From Pseudomonadota bacterium (lineage in GTDB: Bacteria; Pseudomonadota; Gammaproteobacteria; UBA5335), in contig JAXHTV010000002.1 of NCBI GenBank assembly GCA_034189865.1, forward strand, positions 124,001-188,000: a DNA stretch of 64,000 nt. The letters are read 5' to 3'. Each line of letters starts with the position of its first letter. Within the stretch, counting starts at the first letter, position 1. The notes under the pieces were generated by a model that was not told where the DNA came from, made no database searches, and saw only the letters and a list, made by a program, of their open reading frames with translations. A program made the position numbers and the translations under genes. Of this stretch, positions 31,855 to 45,450 are shown piece after piece.

Positions 31855-31890
31855 AAAAAAACCGGCGTCCCTGTTGAAGGAACGCCGGTT
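31855..31890 (-). terminator. Intrinsic terminator of the monooxygenase subunit C gene
   Basis: AACCGGCGT (31860-31868) pairs with ACGCCGGTT (31882-31890), with one further mismatch and two more pairs inside. Read on the minus strand the stem ends in seven T followed by a G run. It lies 30 bases beyond the stop of the subunit C gene at 31920. Confidence 0.85.
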
Positions 31891-31919: not shown

Positions 31920-32714
31920 CTAGGCAACCGAAGTCGTAGAGGACTCGTCAGGTAGTTTGGTGAGTTGGTGAACGCGGGCGATGCACTGCAGAACGAAGCC
32001 ACCCAAAGCATACAATGCCCATGCCAGCACCACGAAACCCCAATGGATCGGAGCGGCGAACAGCTCTTCTGCATAGAAGAACGTATGCCCCCACTCGTTA
32101 AGACCCAAATTCGGCATGATCAAAATGGGGCCGGCGACTGCCAGACCAAGCGGCACCGAAATCCGGTTGGCAAAATCGGGCAAACGCGTATGCACCCACA
32201 CAAAACCGAACACCAAACCCACTAATGCTGCCGGAATCGCAAAATAGAACAACGCGATGTGCGTCGGCGTGAAGTCGGTGTCGCGAATCGTGGTTTGATG
32301 CCATGCGGCGTCGGCTTCCACGAACAATCCGAAAGCGACCACAGCCAGGAAACTCGCAACGGCAAGAACCGAGAAGATATAGTAGTAGCGTCGAAGCTCC
32401 ATCTGCGGGCTCAACAAATGCAATTGCTTGTCACGGGTAAGCCAAAGCACCACGACGGCGATTAACCCCACCAGGGGGATCACGGTCATCTGAATATAAA
32501 ACAGGCTCATCCAATAAACCTGAAATTCAGGCTCGAAATAATCCATACCGACCGTGAAAGAATAATATTGCTGATACCACCGGTAGACGCCAAACAGCGC
32601 GCCGGCCAGCAACAACAAGCCAAAAGCAAAAACCCACGGCACTTTCGGAGCCGCAGTGTCATCGACAGCGGTCTGGTGACCGACAACAGGGGCATTGTTG
32701 AGCACAGAGCTCAT
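31920..32714 (-). CDS. Copper membrane monooxygenase subunit C (PmoC/AmoC family), lone copy
   Basis: A 264-residue protein with about six membrane helices matching PmoC/AmoC throughout: GMDYFEPEFQVYWMSLF, WHQTTIRDTDFTPTHI, and PNLGLNEWGHTFFYAEELF. Against methanotroph PmoC, the CuC ligands (Asp156, His160, His173) are D135, H139 and H152, and the CuD ligands (Asn227, His231, His245) are N206, H210 and H224: all present. The family hydroxylates ammonia, methane or short hydrocarbons as a CAB complex. No A or B gene lies within the window on either side. A GGAGG site, a sigma70-like promoter and a terminator make it a stand-alone unit. Extra lone copies of amoC are known in ammonia oxidisers. 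Substrate cannot be read from C alone. Confidence 0.9.
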   Translation of the reverse strand: MSSVLNNAPVVGHQTAVDDTAAPKVPWVFAFGLLLLAGALFGVYRWYQQYYSFTVGMDYFEPEFQVYWMSLFYIQMTVIPLVGLIAVVVLWLTRDKQLHLLSPQMELRRYYYIFSVLAVASFLAVVAFGLFVEADAAWHQTTIRDTDFTPTHIALFYFAIPAALVGLVFGFVWVHTRLPDFANRISVPLGLAVAGPILIMPNLGLNEWGHTFFYAEELFAAPIHWGFVVLAWALYALGGFVLQCIARVHQLTKLPDESSTTSVA

Positions 32715-32811
32715 CTTCGAATCCTCCTAACGAACGCACCCGCATCAGAACGGGCAAATGACTATGATTATTGTGATTGCGGTTCCTGAGTCACTTCGGA
32801 ACGCTAAGAAA

Positions 32812-32840
32812 ATACTAGGAACGATTGAACGTTAGGTCAA
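32812..32840 (-). promoter_or_regulatory. Sigma70-like promoter of the monooxygenase subunit C gene
   Basis: On the minus strand TTGACC (32835-32840) and TAGTAT (32812-32817) are separated by 17 bases. The first matches five of six -35 positions, the second four of six -10 positions. A transcript would begin near 32805 with a leader of about 90 bases ending in GGAGG before ATG 32714. Confidence 0.5.
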
Positions 32841-33346: not shown

Positions 33347-34504
33347 CTAGCTGTCTTCGCGACTCAACATATGCATTACGCAGACTGAGCCGGCACCCAT
33401 CATATGCACAGCGGCATTTTGAGCGCCGTCGACTTGCCGCTTGCCCGCTTCTCCGCGCAGTTGCAAGGTCGCGTCCCATACCTGCGCTAAGCCGGTCGGA
33501 CCACCCGGATGGCCACGCGCAATCAAGCCGCCATCGGTGGAAAACGGAATCCGTCCGCCAATTTTAGTGGCGCCTTCCAACACCAGCTTGTCGCCTTCGC
33601 CCTCGTCGCAAAAGCCCATCAACTCGTAGTACATCAACTCTTCAATGGGAAATGCGTCGTGCACGTGCACCAAACTGATATCTTCCGGACCTAAGCCCGC
33701 CTCTTCATAACACGCCTTAGAAGTAGTGCGGGTCAGTTCGCTGGGTCCGACTACCGCGCCCAGGAACACATGACCATCGACATACTGCTCCGACTGCAAC
33801 TGCGAAGCCACCACCCGAACGAGAGGACGACCGTTGGCCAATTTCTGGGCCCATTCCTTATTCGCCACAATGGCACAGGCAGCGCCGCCACCGGTTGCGC
33901 AAGCCATCATCGACGTATGCGGATAGGCCACGGCCTTCGCACTCAAAACCTCTTCCGCCGTAACTTCGTGGTCAGATTGACGCTGAGCCATGGGGTTGAA
34001 GCGGGCGTGGTTCCAGTTCTTTGCCGCGATCTCGGCGAAAATCTCCGGCTTAGTTCCGTATTCATGCATACGGCGAACCGCCCACATGGCGAAAAAACCG
34101 GCCGGAAGCACGATGCCCTCGATGCGCGGCCCTTGTGCCGTCATCATCTGCATCATCATCTGCCCCATGCGCACGATATCGTCGAAACCCAGTGCCATGG
34201 CCATGCCAACCTTACCGCTGGCGACTTGCAGGCAAGCTTCGCGGAAAGCGGTTGAACCAGTAGCCGAGGCATTTTCGACGTGAACGACCGGCAATCCGGT
34301 CAGTCCCAGATCTTTGGCGATCGCCACACCTTCGGTCATATCACCCATGATGTAGCCGTTGTAGAGATAGCCCATTTCCTTGAAGGACGTGCCGGCATCT
34401 TTCAGTGCGTCCTTAGCGGCTGTATAAGCCATCTCCCGGTTCGTTTTGCCGTGTTTGCCGAAGGGGTGCATTCCCACGCCGACGACGTAGACATCTTCCA
34501 ACAT
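33347..34504 (-). CDS. Thiolase-fold protein without reactive cysteines (Ltp2/SCP2-type)
   Basis: A 385-residue member of the SCP2-type thiolase family (lipid-transfer protein group). The nucleophile position, NCATGS in active enzymes, reads ASATGSTAF, with Ser80 for Cys. The HDCF motif is HDAF (residues 282-285), so the second Cys is also gone. The GHP histidine is kept (H332). Such proteins do not act as thiolases; the Ltp2 branch works as retro-aldolases that cleave beta-hydroxyacyl-CoA of steroid side chains together with a DUF35 partner. That partner is encoded 17 bases upstream. The aldolase role is inferred from this pairing and the lost cysteines; substrate is unknown. Confidence 0.88.
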   Translation of the reverse strand: MLEDVYVVGVGMHPFGKHGKTNREMAYTAAKDALKDAGTSFKEMGYLYNGYIMGDMTEGVAIAKDLGLTGLPVVHVENASATGSTAFREACLQVASGKVGMAMALGFDDIVRMGQMMMQMMTAQGPRIEGIVLPAGFFAMWAVRRMHEYGTKPEIFAEIAAKNWNHARFNPMAQRQSDHEVTAEEVLSAKAVAYPHTSMMACATGGGAACAIVANKEWAQKLANGRPLVRVVASQLQSEQYVDGHVFLGAVVGPSELTRTTSKACYEEAGLGPEDISLVHVHDAFPIEELMYYELMGFCDEGEGDKLVLEGATKIGGRIPFSTDGGLIARGHPGGPTGLAQVWDATLQLRGEAGKRQVDGAQNAAVHMMGAGSVCVMHMLSREDS

Positions 34505-34521
34505 CCTAAATTACCCCTTAC

Positions 34522-34938
34522 TTACTTCTTAATCGGTTCGAAACCAAAGGTGCACATTTCCGTGTCACCCTTCTTCTTGACCGGGATGGCAATCAGACCC
34601 ATGGGCATACCGATTTCCCAATCACCTTTCTGCCCAGAGATCACCGCCTGAACGCGCACGCCTTCTGGCAAATCGATTTGACCCACGCCGTGAGCGCGGC
34701 CATCACCCATTTTGGCTGCACCCATGAACGGCATCGTAATCCAGGTCCAGGAATACAAAACGCCTTCCGGGGACAACTCCACGTCCTCAACAGGGGTCTC
34801 AGTCAAAGGACATTGATATCGACGCGGGAAAAAATACTTATCGGCGGCGGGACTATAGGACGCCAACAAACGCGGCCGTTCCCCTTCCTCCTCGGGGATT
34901 CGGAAGTAGCCCTCCTCCAACGGTACCTGCTTTGGCAT
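34522..34938 (-). CDS. DUF35 OB-fold protein, degenerate zinc ribbon
   Basis: A 138-residue protein of the DUF35/ChsH2-C type: an N-terminal rubredoxin-like zinc ribbon, then an OB-fold. The OB part is clear (GVLYSWTWITMP, HGVGQIDLPEGVRVQAVISG, IGMPMGLIAIPVKKKGD). In the ribbon only C43 (RRYQCPLTETPVEDVEL) of the normal four cysteines remains, so zinc is probably not bound. DUF35 proteins form complexes with thiolase-fold partners; here the partner gene follows after 17 bases. It lies between two terminator-like hairpins, so this pair is one transcription unit. Confidence 0.87.
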   Translation of the reverse strand: MPKQVPLEEGYFRIPEEEGERPRLLASYSPAADKYFFPRRYQCPLTETPVEDVELSPEGVLYSWTWITMPFMGAAKMGDGRAHGVGQIDLPEGVRVQAVISGQKGDWEIGMPMGLIAIPVKKKGDTEMCTFGFEPIKK

Positions 34939-35083
34939 TACACGATACTCCTAAGTGTGAAAATACATCCTTGTCATTATACCTGCCGTTCTCCCCAGGC
35001 TCTCGCTCAACGGTAACGCGAAGCTGATACCAGGGCTGCTTGAGGTGGGATTTGGCAGGTCAAAACGCATCTGCTCAACGGCA

Positions 35084-35112
35084 AGCGCCCCACGCCTTAG
35101 GCGTGGGGCGCT
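35084..35112. terminator. Perfect 13-base hairpin after the acyl-CoA dehydrogenase genes
   Basis: AGCGCCCCACGCC, loop TTA, GGCGTGGGGCGCT: a 13-base perfect stem with a 3-base loop, 19 bases beyond the stop of the dehydrogenase at 35131. Neither side has a T run, so it is not a textbook intrinsic terminator. It may end transcription with Rho or protect the 3' end of the mRNA. Confidence 0.55.
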
Positions 35113-35130
35113 GATGTAAAGCAGAGACAA

Positions 35131-36417
35131 CTAAGCGGCTTTGCTCGGTCCGGTCGGAACCTCGCTGAAAGGTACACCTTTGTCGAGACGAACATCGGTG
35201 GGTAGACCCAACACTCGCTCACCGATGATGTTACGTTGAACTTCGTCGGTACCACCGGCGATACGAATCGCGGGGATACCCAGGTACGCTTGCTGCCACA
35301 TGCCTTCCATCATGGCTTCCGACTTGTCGGTCAGAACACAGGAAGCGCCCTGAAGCTCCATGATGAAAGCTGCCATTTCCTGGATCAACAGCCCCATGGC
35401 CAACTTCATGATCGAACCCTCCGGCCCCGGCAAAGCGCCTTGGGACAAGGCGGATAAGGTGCGCTGACCGGTCAGTTCCAACGCTTTGAAACGTGCCGAG
35501 AATTCAGCGAGTTTCTGGCGAACGCCACCGTGTTGGAGAGCAGGGGTATCGCCGATATAGACATCGTCCAACAAACTGAACATTTGGCCCATGCCCATGT
35601 CGCCACCCAACATACCGCCGCCACCGCCGATACTCATCCGCTCATTCATTAGCGTCGTGATCGCCACGCTCCAGCCTTGGCCGACTGCGCCTAATCGGTT
35701 GGAATCGGGTATTCGGACGTCGTTAAAGAACACTTCGTTAAAGTTCGCGCCACCGGTAATTTGCTTGATCGGGCGAACTTCGATACCCGGCGTCGACATA
35801 TCAACGATGAAATAGGTCAGCCCCTTGTGCTTAGGGACAGAGGGATCGGAACGAGTGACGAGAATACCCCATTGGCTGTAATGACCGCCGGAAGTCCATA
35901 CTTTCTGACCGTTGATCACCCATTCGTCGCCATCCTTAACCGCTTTGGTCCGAAGACCGGCCAAGTCGGAACCCGCGCCTGGCTCACTGAACAGCTGACA
36001 CCAGACCTCGTCGCCACGGAGCATGGGCGGCAGATAGCGGTCTTTTTGCTCGTTGGTGCCGTGGGTCATGATGGTCGGCCCGGCCATACCGATGCCGATC
36101 ATAAAAATATTGGCCGGCGTGTTGAACTTGGACTCTTCTTGCCCCCAAATGACTTGCTGCATGATGTTACCGCCCCGGCCGCCATACTTCTTCGGCCAGG
36201 TGATCACGCCCCAACCGGCATCCGCTTTCTTGCGTTGCCATTCCTGGGCCTTACGGACCATTTCGTTTTCTGCCTCGCCACGGGGATCACCTCCCTCTGC
36301 CTCGGCGAACATGGCCATCATGTTCGTCGCTTCGGTTCGAGGCTCGGCGTTTTTAGATAACCACTCGCGAACTTCCGCCCGGAATTCCGCTTCCTGCGGG
36401 GAATCATTGAAATCCAT
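35131..36417 (-). CDS. Acyl-CoA dehydrogenase, large-type (FadE29-like)
   Basis: A 428-residue flavoprotein that oxidises an acyl-CoA to the enoyl-CoA. CQLFSEPGAGSDLAG binds FAD and the acyl chain, and VWTSGGHYSQWGILVTR follows. The classical base position near the C-terminus (YEGT) reads AGGTDEVQRN, without Glu; a Glu is present in the helix G position, LMNERMSI, the base site of the isovaleryl-type enzymes. ATG 36417 follows GGAGGG with six bases; the in-frame TTG at 36423 is rejected. It follows the second dehydrogenase gene by 67 bases, and the two probably form a mixed alpha2beta2 enzyme like the paired steroid dehydrogenases. Confidence 0.92.
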   Translation of the reverse strand: MDFNDSPQEAEFRAEVREWLSKNAEPRTEATNMMAMFAEAEGGDPRGEAENEMVRKAQEWQRKKADAGWGVITWPKKYGGRGGNIMQQVIWGQEESKFNTPANIFMIGIGMAGPTIMTHGTNEQKDRYLPPMLRGDEVWCQLFSEPGAGSDLAGLRTKAVKDGDEWVINGQKVWTSGGHYSQWGILVTRSDPSVPKHKGLTYFIVDMSTPGIEVRPIKQITGGANFNEVFFNDVRIPDSNRLGAVGQGWSVAITTLMNERMSIGGGGGMLGGDMGMGQMFSLLDDVYIGDTPALQHGGVRQKLAEFSARFKALELTGQRTLSALSQGALPGPEGSIMKLAMGLLIQEMAAFIMELQGASCVLTDKSEAMMEGMWQQAYLGIPAIRIAGGTDEVQRNIIGERVLGLPTDVRLDKGVPFSEVPTGPSKAA

Positions 36418-36484
36418 CTTCAATCCCTCCTGAAAATCTTTGTCGAATCAACACCCTGGAGTCACGCTCGGTACCGGGGCATTG

Positions 36485-37591
36485 TCAAGCAGCAGCTTGC
36501 TCCAAGCATTGCATCAAGCGCTCCCGCCACATCATCGAGCCGCCAAGCACGCTTTCAAGATGCTTGGCACGCTTCATGTGCAAGTGGGGATCCGCTTCCC
36601 AGGTAAACCCGATACCACCGTGGATTTGGACGTTTTCTTCCGCCGCAAATCGATAGGCATCAATACCCATCACGCGGGCGCTGCTGGCGGCTTGGCGCAC
36701 GTTTTCGGGTGAATGCTCCAGCGCCCATGCAGCGTAGTAAGCGCTCGAGCGGGCCATTTCCACTTTGACGAACATATCCGCGATGCGGTGTTTAATCGCT
36801 TGGAAAGAACCGATCGGGCGGCCGAATGCGTAACGCTCCTTGGCATAGTTGGTGGCCATTTCTAGCGCCGATTGCGCACCACCCACCTGCTCGAATGCGA
36901 TCAAGGCAGCAGCCTTGTATAGCATGTCATCGAGATACTCCCACCCCTTGCCGGCCACTCCCAGTAGCTCTCCTTCGGCGCCGTTGAACGTCAGTCGTGC
37001 CTGCTTGCGCGCGCGATCCATGGACTGCACCAGTTCACGACTCACTTGCGCGCTACGTAGATCGACCGCGTACAGCGATACACCTTCCGCCGAACGGGCG
37101 GCCACGATCCCCAAATCGGCCGACAAACCATCGGCAACCGGCACCTTCACGCCGGTGAGCTTGTTGCCGTCGGCTTTGAGTTGAATACCGCCTTGGTCCA
37201 AACGACCTTTCTCCGACAGTGCCACGGTCGCAATGGATTCACCGCTAGCGATTCGGGAAAGATACTTTTTCTTTTGCTCTTCCGAGCCGGCTGCCTTGAT
37301 CACTTCGGCGGCCATGAAAATGGATGAATCAAATGGGGAACACGCCAAGGCCTTACCCATTTCTTCAGCCAACACAGCCAATTCCAGATAACCCATGCCA
37401 GCCCCACCGAATTCTTCCGGAATGGCCATACTCGGCCAACCCGCTTCGGCCATTTGGCTCCAGAGCTTCTCGTCATAGGTCGCGTCGGAGTCGAGGATTT
37501 TGTGCACTGCACTGAGTGGAGACAAATCGGACAAGAGCCGCTTGGCCGAGTCGCGAATCATCTCTTGATCTTGAGAGAATGCAAAGTTCAT
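36485..37591 (-). CDS. Acyl-CoA dehydrogenase, short-type (FadE28-like)
   Basis: A 368-residue acyl-CoA dehydrogenase of the second kind: PEEFGGAGMGYLELAVLAEEMGKALA, then KERYAFGRPIGSFQAIKHRIADM, then IHGGIGFTWEADPHLHMKRAKHLE. The middle FAD-binding part is shortened, as expected when the partner subunit provides most of the flavin site. The C-terminal GFTWE pattern has no Glu at the classical base position. Start ATG 37591 follows AAAGGAG; the frame from 37648 includes 19 unlikely residues. It is the promoter-proximal gene of the pair. A heteromeric enzyme acting on branched or side-chain CoA esters is inferred from pairing. Confidence 0.9.
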   Translation of the reverse strand: MNFAFSQDQEMIRDSAKRLLSDLSPLSAVHKILDSDATYDEKLWSQMAEAGWPSMAIPEEFGGAGMGYLELAVLAEEMGKALACSPFDSSIFMAAEVIKAAGSEEQKKKYLSRIASGESIATVALSEKGRLDQGGIQLKADGNKLTGVKVPVADGLSADLGIVAARSAEGVSLYAVDLRSAQVSRELVQSMDRARKQARLTFNGAEGELLGVAGKGWEYLDDMLYKAAALIAFEQVGGAQSALEMATNYAKERYAFGRPIGSFQAIKHRIADMFVKVEMARSSAYYAAWALEHSPENVRQAASSARVMGIDAYRFAAEENVQIHGGIGFTWEADPHLHMKRAKHLESVLGGSMMWRERLMQCLEQAAA

Positions 37592-38074
37592 GGCTTGAGC
37601 TCCTTTCAAGCACGAATGTTTCGAATCGATCCACCGTTCGGTGGACATGATTGCTGGAACGGATTCGAGGACACAACGCAGGAAAACGAAACCCGGAAAA
37701 ACATCACCGAGGTTCTGTCAATCCGTGTTTTGTCTGTTGTTCAACGTGGCGCGTCGATCAGCGTTATCGTAGTTGTTACGCGCCTGAGCGATATGCTCTC
37801 TCCTCCGGATGCGTCACTAGTATCACAAAACGGTCGTTCAAGGCTAGTATTCGTGGCCCCAAAACACGACGCGCCGGTGGACCATCTTCGCCAAGCGATG
37901 AGGAATAATCGGACAACACCTATCCCCGGTCGACGATATCGACAAACCGCGGGCGTTTGATATTTCGATATTCGAGACGCCGTTCTAGAATGTTAGGCCA
38001 GAATCATTAGCGCCTAAAGCCGCTGCACTGATTCCACCAACGACTCATTATCGATACGAACGAGGCAACTGCCC
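37592..38074. other. Divergent intergenic region, nothing recognised
   Basis: A 483-base gap between the divergent dehydrogenase and universal stress protein genes, so it must hold both promoters. I found no convincing -35/-10 pair, operator palindrome or RNA. The frames across it lack ribosome binding sites and protein patterns. A TetR or similar operator for the dehydrogenase operon would be expected here but is not visible to me. Confidence 0.4.
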
Positions 38075-42526: not shown

Positions 42527-42744
42527 CTGACAGAGCGATTGTGTTTCACAAAACTGAAACATAGAATAGCCGCCGCCGTCGCGATTAAAACCAGTCGAAA
42601 TCGCACGATTCCCGGATCAATCCGCCCAAGTTAGTGGGTAATACCGGGTGACGGAGAGAATGCTGTCCGCTGAGGCCTTGTTGGGTTTCGTGAAGCGACC
42701 GCAGACGTCACGACTGACAAACTGAAGTCATAAGGAGATTGCAA

Positions 42745-43932
42745 ATGCGCGCTTTCACGAGCCGTATCTGCGTTGCAACCCTGCTTTGCGTGGGCACTTT
42801 TGTCCCAACCGCCGGTGCGATTGAACGCGGCATTACCATCACGCCCGGAATCAACTACTACTGGTGGGATCGGGAACGAACCCTCGAAGACAACCTCGGT
42901 GTTCGGCTCGGATTCGGTTATCAGATCAACGAGAACTGGTCGACCGAATTGGTGGTGGCTGACGTCGATACCCACTTCGAGTCTTTGAAGGACGTCGATG
43001 CCGACCTCACCCATCTCCAAATCGATCTCATGTACACATTCTTTCCGGATTCCCGGATGCGGCCCTACCTGGTCGTAGGCGCCGGCGGCGGGATCTTCGA
43101 ACGTGACGACCGCAGCGAGAGCGAACCGCTAATCGACTGGGGTTTGGGATTGCGAACTCAAGTCAGTGAACGCATCGCGATCTTGGGTGATGTGCGAGCC
43201 TACACGTCTACCGAAACCAAAGATGACGATGTGGTGGCCATGTTGGCAGCCAGCTTTAATTTCGGCCAGAAAACCCCGCTGGACAGTGACGGTGATGGTG
43301 TAACGGACGACATGGATCAATGTCCTGATACCCCGGCCGGCGTGGCGGTTGATAAAGCGGGCTGCCCGCTGGACAGCGATGGTGATGGCGTGGCCGATTA
43401 CCTCGACAAATGCCCCGACACTCCGGAAGGCGTGGAAGTCAATGCCGACGGTTGCCCGCTGGACAGCGATGGTGACGGCGTGGCCGACTACCTCGACAAA
43501 TGCCCCAAGACACCCAAGGGCGCCAAAGTCGACGAGAACGGCTGCCAAATCATCCTGAAAGAACCGGTCAGCATCAAGCTGGAAGTCCTGTTCCCGACCA
43601 ACTCGGCCGCCATCGCTCCGACCTACTATCCGGAGATCAAAGAAGTCGCCGACTTCATGGTCGAATACCCCAGCACCGAGGTGACCATCGAAGGCCATAC
43701 CGATAGCACCGGCGCCGCCGAGTACAACCGCGTGTTGTCACAGCGTCGTGCCAACGCCGTACGTCAGGTCTTGCTCGAACGCTACAGCGTCGATGCCAAG
43801 CGCGTCCGTGCCGTGGGCTATGGTGAAGAGCGGCCCGTGGCCGACAACGGCACCGCCGCAGGCCGTCAAGCCAACCGGCGTGTCGTCGCTGTGCTCAAGG
43901 CCACCAAAGAAAAGGTATTGCAGAAAGACTAA
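42745..43932 (+). CDS. OmpA-family protein with TSP3 repeats, copy 1
   Basis: A 395-residue outer membrane protein: signal peptide (ending PTAGA), an 8-strand-like barrel (about 26-178), three DSDGDGVxD thrombospondin type 3 Ca2+-binding repeats with paired cysteines, and a C-terminal OmpA domain (IEGHTDSTGAAEYNRVLSQRR with the peptidoglycan-binding Asp and Arg). It would tie the outer membrane to the cell wall. AAGGAG precedes ATG 42745. From 43282 the sequence is identical to the end of the next gene, while the barrels are only distantly alike (both have a PDSxxxPYxVVGxGGG block). Its own terminator lies inside that repeat. Confidence 0.93.
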   Translation: MRAFTSRICVATLLCVGTFVPTAGAIERGITITPGINYYWWDRERTLEDNLGVRLGFGYQINENWSTELVVADVDTHFESLKDVDADLTHLQIDLMYTFFPDSRMRPYLVVGAGGGIFERDDRSESEPLIDWGLGLRTQVSERIAILGDVRAYTSTETKDDDVVAMLAASFNFGQKTPLDSDGDGVTDDMDQCPDTPAGVAVDKAGCPLDSDGDGVADYLDKCPDTPEGVEVNADGCPLDSDGDGVADYLDKCPKTPKGAKVDENGCQIILKEPVSIKLEVLFPTNSAAIAPTYYPEIKEVADFMVEYPSTEVTIEGHTDSTGAAEYNRVLSQRRANAVRQVLLERYSVDAKRVRAVGYGEERPVADNGTAAGRQANRRVVAVLKATKEKVLQKD

Positions 43933-43986: not shown

Positions 43987-44238
43987 GAACAGTATCGGCA
44001 GCAAACACGAAAGGTGAAGAAATCCCGTTGCGACGACCCGGGTGATATGAAACCATAGATAGCAATTGCATATCGTCTGCGTTGGGCCTATGCTCTGCCC
44101 CGACTAACGACGGAGTAGCGATTCTCAGCAGGGCATTCACTCACTCCGGTTCGAGCAGCGCTGCAGACCCATACAGTTTCTGCTGCCTTGTTGCAATCAA
44201 ACTTATCAATTACGGATAAAACCGAAAGGAGTCAGTCA

Positions 44239-45450
44239 ATGAGACTTCGCCATTCCGCACTCGCTCTGGCACTGGCCAGCGGCATCGCCGCCATTCCTGC
44301 CGCTCACGCGGTGGACAGTGGGCCCGTCATCACGTTGGGTGGTACATCCACGTTCTTCGGTGACGACCGTGATATCGACATCACGGACAGCACCGTCGAA
44401 GACGCCATGGGTGGCAGCCTTGGCCTGGGTTATCGCTTCAATGAACACTGGATGACAGAATTGGTCGCTGCCTACGCCGGAACGGAGCTGGAAGGTACCG
44501 ATCTGGATGTCGACTTCGGCCGTGTTCAACTCGACGTACTGTACTTGTTTGCGCCCGATAGCGTGATCCACCCCTATGTTGTGGTCGGTGGCGGTGGCGG
44601 CCGCTTTGACGCCGATACCGATCTGCTGGAGGACGATGATGACGCTCTATGGAACTACGGCTTGGGCTTGATGGCCGAGCTGACCAACAACCTGATGCTG
44701 CGCGGTGACGTCCGCGGCTACTATGCCGCCGACGAAGACACCACCGACGTCACCGGTTTGTTGGCCCTAAGCTACATTTTCGGTGCCGAACCGGCTGTCG
44801 ACAGTGACGGTGATGGTGTAACGGACGACATGGATCAATGTCCTGATACCCCGGCCGGCGTGGCGGTTGATAAAGCGGGCTGCCCGCTGGACAGCGATGG
44901 TGATGGCGTGGCCGATTACCTCGACAAATGCCCCGACACTCCGGAAGGCGTGGAAGTCAATGCCGACGGTTGCCCGCTGGACAGCGATGGTGACGGCGTG
45001 GCCGACTACCTCGACAAATGCCCCAAGACACCCAAGGGCGCCAAAGTCGACGAGAACGGCTGCCAAATCATCCTGAAAGAACCGGTCAGCATCAAGCTGG
45101 AAGTCCTGTTCCCGACCAACTCGGCCGCCATCGCTCCGACCTACTATCCGGAGATCAAAGAAGTCGCCGACTTCATGGTCGAATACCCCAGCACCGAGGT
45201 GACCATCGAAGGCCATACCGATAGCACCGGCGCCGCCGAGTACAACCGCGTGTTGTCACAGCGTCGTGCCAACGCCGTACGTCAGGTCTTGCTCGAACGC
45301 TACAGCGTCGATGCCAAGCGCGTCCGTGCCGTGGGCTATGGTGAAGAGCGGCCCGTGGCCGACAACGGCACCGCCGCAGGCCGTCAAGCCAACCGGCGTG
45401 TCGTCGCTGTGCTCAAGGCCACCAAAGAAAAGGTATTGCAGAAAGACTAA
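44239..45450 (+). CDS. OmpA-family protein with TSP3 repeats, copy 2
   Basis: A 403-residue protein with the same plan as its upstream twin: signal peptide (MRLRHSALALALASGIAA, ending PAAHA), a barrel (about 25-187) rich in Asp and Glu, TSP3 repeats and OmpA domain. The last 216 residues are identical to the twin. The barrel has an extra acidic stretch (DADTDLLEDDDDALW) where the twin has fewer acidic residues. ATG 44239 follows AAAGGAG; the frame from 44188 is longer than needed. It is separately transcribed, since the twin ends in a terminator about 250 bases upstream. Two surface barrels on one shared wall anchor are the result. Confidence 0.93.
   Translation: MRLRHSALALALASGIAAIPAAHAVDSGPVITLGGTSTFFGDDRDIDITDSTVEDAMGGSLGLGYRFNEHWMTELVAAYAGTELEGTDLDVDFGRVQLDVLYLFAPDSVIHPYVVVGGGGGRFDADTDLLEDDDDALWNYGLGLMAELTNNLMLRGDVRGYYAADEDTTDVTGLLALSYIFGAEPAVDSDGDGVTDDMDQCPDTPAGVAVDKAGCPLDSDGDGVADYLDKCPDTPEGVEVNADGCPLDSDGDGVADYLDKCPKTPKGAKVDENGCQIILKEPVSIKLEVLFPTNSAAIAPTYYPEIKEVADFMVEYPSTEVTIEGHTDSTGAAEYNRVLSQRRANAVRQVLLERYSVDAKRVRAVGYGEERPVADNGTAAGRQANRRVVAVLKATKEKVLQKD

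Follow-up and report, generated by a model that had tools for sequence, protein, structure and literature searches.

The C subunits of known copper membrane monooxygenases (CuMMOs) act inside a trimer of ABC protomers, and the active site of these enzymes has long been disputed. The nearest precedent for many C genes per A-B pair is the ammonia-oxidising archaeon Nitrososphaera viennensis, whose AMO is encoded by six spatially separate amoC genes, one amoA and one amoB; its duplications are at genus level, AmoC6 dominates, and the alternative C subunits have been suggested to tune the enzyme (PMC10030591). A stand-alone C with intact ligands, and a CAB operon elsewhere in the genome, is also found among ammonia-oxidising bacteria (AOB) and methanotrophs (N. 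europaea amoC3, methanotroph pmoC3). The hydrocarbon CuMMOs (pHMO, BMO or 'group X') of Cycloclasticus, Nevskiaceae and Comamonadaceae carry a PmoD-like fourth gene, and their Cycloclasticus hosts degrade alkanes (PMC12510462). Finally, phages carry pmoC without A and B (PMC7674155; IMG/VR).

The lone C gene described here resembles each of these systems in part. As in N. viennensis, several separate C genes accompany each A-B pair, but here they belong to what is by sequence a gammaproteobacterial hydrocarbon-type CuMMO, are 45–75% identical to one another, and occur with an A-B-PmoD-like operon without C and an operator shared with an AlkB gene, whereas the archaeon has no alkane regulon. 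In two control genomes, which we classed as methanotroph-like (G177) and AOB-like (G362) from similarity and gene layout alone, lone C genes are respectively 88–91% and 99–100% identical to the operonic C, number one or two per genome, and coexist with AB genes that have an adjoining C; here, in contrast, five C genes are lone and one AB pair has no C. The PmoD-like gene is shared with the hydrocarbon CuMMOs, although in the genomes examined from Nevskiaceae and Comamonadaceae the C:A:B ratio is 1:1:1 or 2:2:2, all in complete operons. The viral C genes differ in sequence: IMG/VR matches are only 39–47% identical to the gene described here, the three viral C placed in our tree cluster apart from it, and no phage genes surround it, so a viral origin was rejected. 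Two IMG/VR contigs (L206, L207) carry C genes closest to the Porticoccaceae-type CuMMO and not to methanotroph PmoC.

An intact gene for a lone subunit C

The window (the whole stretch of 64,000 nucleotides analysed) contains an xmoC gene of 264 aa on the minus strand (31920–32714), with an ATG start and a GGAGG ribosome-binding site 8 nt ahead of it (32723–32727). The protein matches Pfam AmoC (PF04896) over its full length (profile positions 21–243 of 245; E 2e-71; 240.7 bits against a cut-off of 26.7), and carries the CuC ligands D135, H139 and H152 and the CuD ligands N206, H210 and H224. In an alignment of 100 sequences, these six ligands are kept in 100% of complete lone C and in all operonic C except one. 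In the operonic C of NORP220 (L043), the CuD ligand Asn206 is replaced by Asp (D-H-H / D-H-H).

The predicted fold is that of PmoC: an AlphaFold model (mean pLDDT 80) found its best Foldseek matches entirely among AmoC/PmoC chains (9leg_C, 9pxf_G, 9cl2 and 7s4h; E ~1e-12, identity 38–43%). Comparison with orthologues, using pairs with unsaturated dS only, gave dN/dS of ~0.07–0.10; the gene is intact and under purifying selection. A preliminary description of this DNA had listed all six ligands and judged the gene not to be decaying, a view upheld by the alignment, the PF04896 match and the low dN/dS. The protein scores below the equivalog cut-offs of both NF041641 (bacterial AmoC; 255.9 bits, cut-off 319) and TIGR03078 (methanotroph PmoC; 228.8 bits, cut-off 280.6), and by sequence would be neither in the strict equivalog sense; it is 35–43% identical to the operonic and lone C of reference CuMMO genomes. 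The aligned C genes differ chiefly in their N-terminus and transmembrane helices; residues of the first and second shells hardly vary around either copper site, so the sequences give no evident sign of an altered substrate.

Upstream, a consensus scan found a sigma-70-type promoter-like site on the minus strand (-35 TTGACC, 32840–32835; 17-nt spacer; -10 TAGTAT, 32817–32812). Such sites by themselves are not enriched over shuffled sequence (2 found, 1.3 expected); this one is supported because a conserved operator overlaps its -35 box, the TetR-like palindrome TGACCTAACGTTCA (32826–32839, no strand), found by upstream comparison and one mismatch away from the family palindrome discussed below. 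Downstream lies an intrinsic terminator (31855–31890, minus strand), consisting of a 13-pair stem, AACCGGCGTTCCT-TCAAC-AGGGACGCCGGTT (31890–31860), and a T-run. The promoter-like site, GGAGG and strong terminator of the preliminary description are thus all present, the first now backed by the operator.

Six C genes and two A-B pairs

The source genome (2.9 Mb, 99.4% complete, 72 contigs) contains six C genes (in the window, at 40 kb and 143 kb of contig C4, and on C11, C51 and C54). The genome-wide search for A and B proposed in the preliminary description returned two of each, confined to contigs C4 and C28; there is none anywhere on the 208-kb contig of the window gene, which extends the earlier observation of none within 30 kb. 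A complete C-A-B operon with a PmoD-like gene occupies C4:139.8–143.6 kb, while A, B and a PmoD-like gene stand without C at C28:21.7–24.7 kb (L016:9678–12669), with ~7 kb of sequence upstream of the operon. The extra gene in both operons encodes a PmoD relative (6cpd, E 5e-17). The C gene on C51 reaches the contig end, and because its orthologues stand alone in relatives we take five of the six C genes to be lone.

The window protein is 49–63% identical to the other five C proteins of the genome, with 49% to the operonic C on C4 and 63% at best. By these identities it does not appear to be a recent spare pmoC/amoC; together with the low dN/dS and the full set of ligands, the 49% identity rules out a spare or decaying copy. 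The preliminary description had named a near-identical C in a complete operon as the case that would reduce the gene to a spare, and the operonic C is far from that.

Numerous C genes are also found in related uncultured Gammaproteobacteria, which have up to 10 C per 1–3 AB. Counting broken genes once in GTDB and related genomes, we obtained C:A:B ratios of 10:2:2 in NORP74, 9:3:3 in NORP120, 9:1:1 in UBA5859, and 6:2:2 in both UBA3067 and G002, and the median identity among C genes in C-rich genomes is 50–70%. In the PmoC/AmoC tree the window protein falls in a clade of 71 rows (SH-aLRT 98) whose members are only C-rich and related Gammaproteobacteria, without methanotroph-like or AOB-like references; by this placement it belongs to the hydrocarbon-type CuMMO clade of C-rich Gammaproteobacteria. 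Its nearest operonic relatives are in Nevskiaceae and Comamonadaceae, and five family genomes carry one lone orthologue apiece (70–74% identity, support 92–95). Lone C genes have multiplied more than once, since UBA5859 and the group UBA3067/NORP332/DC226 have their own expansions.

Some C genes in these genomes adjoin one another: groups of two or three, in divergent, convergent or tandem orientation and uninterrupted by A or B, are present at L269:9272–11987 (G002), at L052:7252–10735 (UBA3067) and in L042 (NORP74). In other genomes, very distant lone C-like matches at L375:1632–2336 (G384:C7) and G088:C36:3633–4007 may represent a separate family; the L375 protein is 17–21% identical to true C.

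AB operons without a C gene

The A-B-PmoD-like operon without C is kept in five of the six genomes of the window's family, and is seen again in a distant lineage comprising UBA3067, NORP332 and DC226 (the DC226 copy being cut by a contig end). The A tree resolves these operons into the same two lineages. In NORP332 it is the sole AB operon found. Because the genomes are drafts in many contigs, there is a small chance that a C beside an AB operon was overlooked in the smaller ones. Most of the C-less operons (L016, L273, L274, L275, L276, L282, L283) adjoin two conserved genes, of ~560 and ~300 aa.

If functional, a C-less AB pair must draw its C from a distant gene. According to a 2018 survey, xmoAB in bacteria is always found with xmoC (PMC6215863); conserved C-less AB operons together with several divergent lone C genes break this rule.

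A palindromic operator shared with alkane genes

A 14-bp palindrome, TGAMCGNNCGKTCA (TGAACG-N2-CGTTCA), lies ahead of the window gene, two further lone C genes and both operons (CAB and C-less AB), and also precedes an AlkB (alkane hydroxylase) gene and an aldehyde dehydrogenase gene. An initial dyad search for a common upstream word gave nothing above shuffles; the operator was first spotted by eye in aligned upstream regions, then confirmed by an unbiased de novo scan that took in every 6-bp palindrome with a spacer of 0–6 across 31 family CuMMO units and ranked TGAACG-N2-CGTTCA first (16 of 31, against 4–6 in shuffles). At a score of at least 11/12 it occurs upstream of 17 of the 31 units and 10 of 325 other genes (Fisher 3e-14, a value to be read with the orthologues not being independent); several of those 10 use the same site divergently. 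The source genome has 30 sites at ≤1 mismatch in its 2.9 Mb, no more than the 32 found for the reversed pattern, and therefore only their placement is informative: five of its seven CuMMO units carry a site no more than 300 bp away, where ~0.02 would be expected, for a motif that had been defined in part on the sequences tested.

All orthologues of the window gene have the operator upstream; it is absent upstream of the lone C genes on C51 and C11, and was not found in C-rich lineages outside the family. In the window gene, the C gene at C4:40 kb and the orthologues, the left half of the palindrome forms part of the -35 box (TTGACC/TTGAAC) and a -10 box follows ~17 nt on, so that the same promoter layout is repeated. 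The six C genes, the C-less AB operon and the operator tying lone C, CAB, AB and AlkB together all go beyond the preliminary description.

The operator lies 102 bp upstream of the AlkB gene in the source genome, and perfect sites precede AlkB in G002 and Gammapro7; the AlkB assignment rests on similarity to alkane 1-monooxygenases of known structure (8f6t and 8sbb, E ~1e-39). It lies 135 bp upstream of the aldehyde dehydrogenase gene, and further sites lie close to genes for an acyl-CoA dehydrogenase and an AMP-binding enzyme. The link to AlkB and aldehyde dehydrogenase points, indirectly, to hydrocarbon oxidation by this CuMMO clade, and we consider the possible hydrocarbon link of the window gene, raised in the preliminary description, to be right. 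The source genome has seven AlkB-like genes, and its relatives similar numbers; those at G000:C8:72194, C16:27463 and C16:28964 and on C7, C31 and C37 (L311, L337–L340) include one with the CuMMO operator.

A palindrome with a short spacer overlapping a promoter is the pattern of TetR-family operators, and we regard the site as a putative one. Only five TetR_N genes score above cut-off in the source genome, and those near operator sites, at C17:23206 (adjoining an RND efflux gene) and C1:46341 (adjoining a ferredoxin reductase), are candidates only. TetR control of alkB has a precedent in Rhodococcus (PMC6921075).

A probable exchangeable subunit

We think it likely that the window gene encodes a trans-acting alternative C of a hydrocarbon CuMMO within an alkane-oxidation regulon. 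There are six versions of C for two partner sets, one of them without its own C; the parts of the enzyme are therefore probably interchangeable, and the window gene probably supplies one of these parts of an alkane-oxidising enzyme. Its product would be expressed from the gene's own promoter and most likely joins, in trans, A and B (plus the PmoD-like protein) encoded elsewhere, either those of the C-less operon on C28 or the C4 set, where it would replace the operonic C. Such assembly is implied by the C-less AB operons, provided that they are functional. A putative TetR-type regulator bound over the -35 box probably represses transcription, and release, probably by an alkane or an alkane-derived compound (a fatty acyl-CoA, for example), would extend to AlkB, the CAB and AB operons and the aldehyde dehydrogenase. 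From these patterns we infer assembly in trans, a repressor and its inducer, and properties that differ from one C to another: divergent C subunits probably vary a single A-B scaffold in substrate range, affinity, or the copper or oxygen conditions it suits. More tentatively, and with somewhat less than even confidence, we propose that an A-B-PmoD-like scaffold without C draws on separately encoded C subunits that are ancient and divergent (up to eight lone copies per genome), giving each organism several monooxygenases that differ in substrate range or affinity.

The gene could instead be a stress or recovery copy, like N. europaea amoC3 or methanotroph pmoC3, that replaces an unstable C under other conditions while leaving enzyme and substrate the same. 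Lone amoC genes in AOB have been linked to stress (cited in PMC10030591), alternative AmoC subunits may serve other conditions (as suggested in PMC10030591), and near-invariant copper-site shells fit a single chemistry. The complete operon elsewhere that the preliminary description imagined for a stress copy does exist (C4:139.8–143.6 kb), but the stress role itself fits poorly: the window protein is 49% identical to the operonic C, compared to 88–100% for the control lone copies, there are five lone copies and not one, the C-less AB operon depends on a C for its ordinary function and not just under stress, and the shared operator serves AlkB and aldehyde dehydrogenase, which are not stress genes. 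We therefore regard this explanation as unlikely.

Neighbouring genes

On the same strand and 0.6 kb upstream of the C gene, two acyl-CoA dehydrogenases, a ChsH2-type OB-fold protein and an SCP-x thiolase lie in a row (33347–37648, minus strand). The C subunit might accordingly be read as the substrate-specific oxygenase subunit of this cluster, acting on one branched or side-chain substrate; the thiolase is common to C-rich CuMMO genomes (69–86% identity), acyl-CoA dehydrogenase and thiolase-type genes recur near CuMMO operons, and a CAB operon of DC160 is separated by 8 kb from the orthologous thiolase/OB-fold pair. However, a separate promoter and operator serve the C gene, its family orthologues adjoin pseudouridine synthase and purT-like genes instead, and the thiolase orthologues in the family are on other contigs or far from C. 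No conserved neighbourhood of the window gene was found across the family genomes; the CoA-ester genes are therefore not a fixed partner, the link drawn to them in the preliminary description is not conserved, and we consider a role within the cluster very improbable. Acyl-CoA dehydrogenases beside a lone C in NORP120 were also considered as conserved neighbours, but are only 36–39% identical to those in the window and are ordinary paralogues. Further along the window, two adjoining genes for OmpA-like outer-membrane proteins (42739–43932 and 44188–45450) have almost identical second halves, consistent with recent partial duplication or gene conversion.

Least probable of all is that the lone C has a separate job, such as copper storage or delivery or oxygenation without A and B. 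The intact CuC and CuD sites and the phages that carry C alone speak for it, but the operator of the gene is shared with A-B genes of the same genome, the C-less AB operons in these genomes need a C, and known CuMMO C subunits act within the ABC-protomer trimer.

Implications

The combination of C-less AB operons with divergent lone C genes amounts to a natural test of C function that bears directly on the dispute over the CuMMO active site: should C hold that site, exchanging C on one AB scaffold should alter activity. Surveys that rely on pmoA as a marker would leave most of the C diversity of these probable alkane oxidisers undetected.
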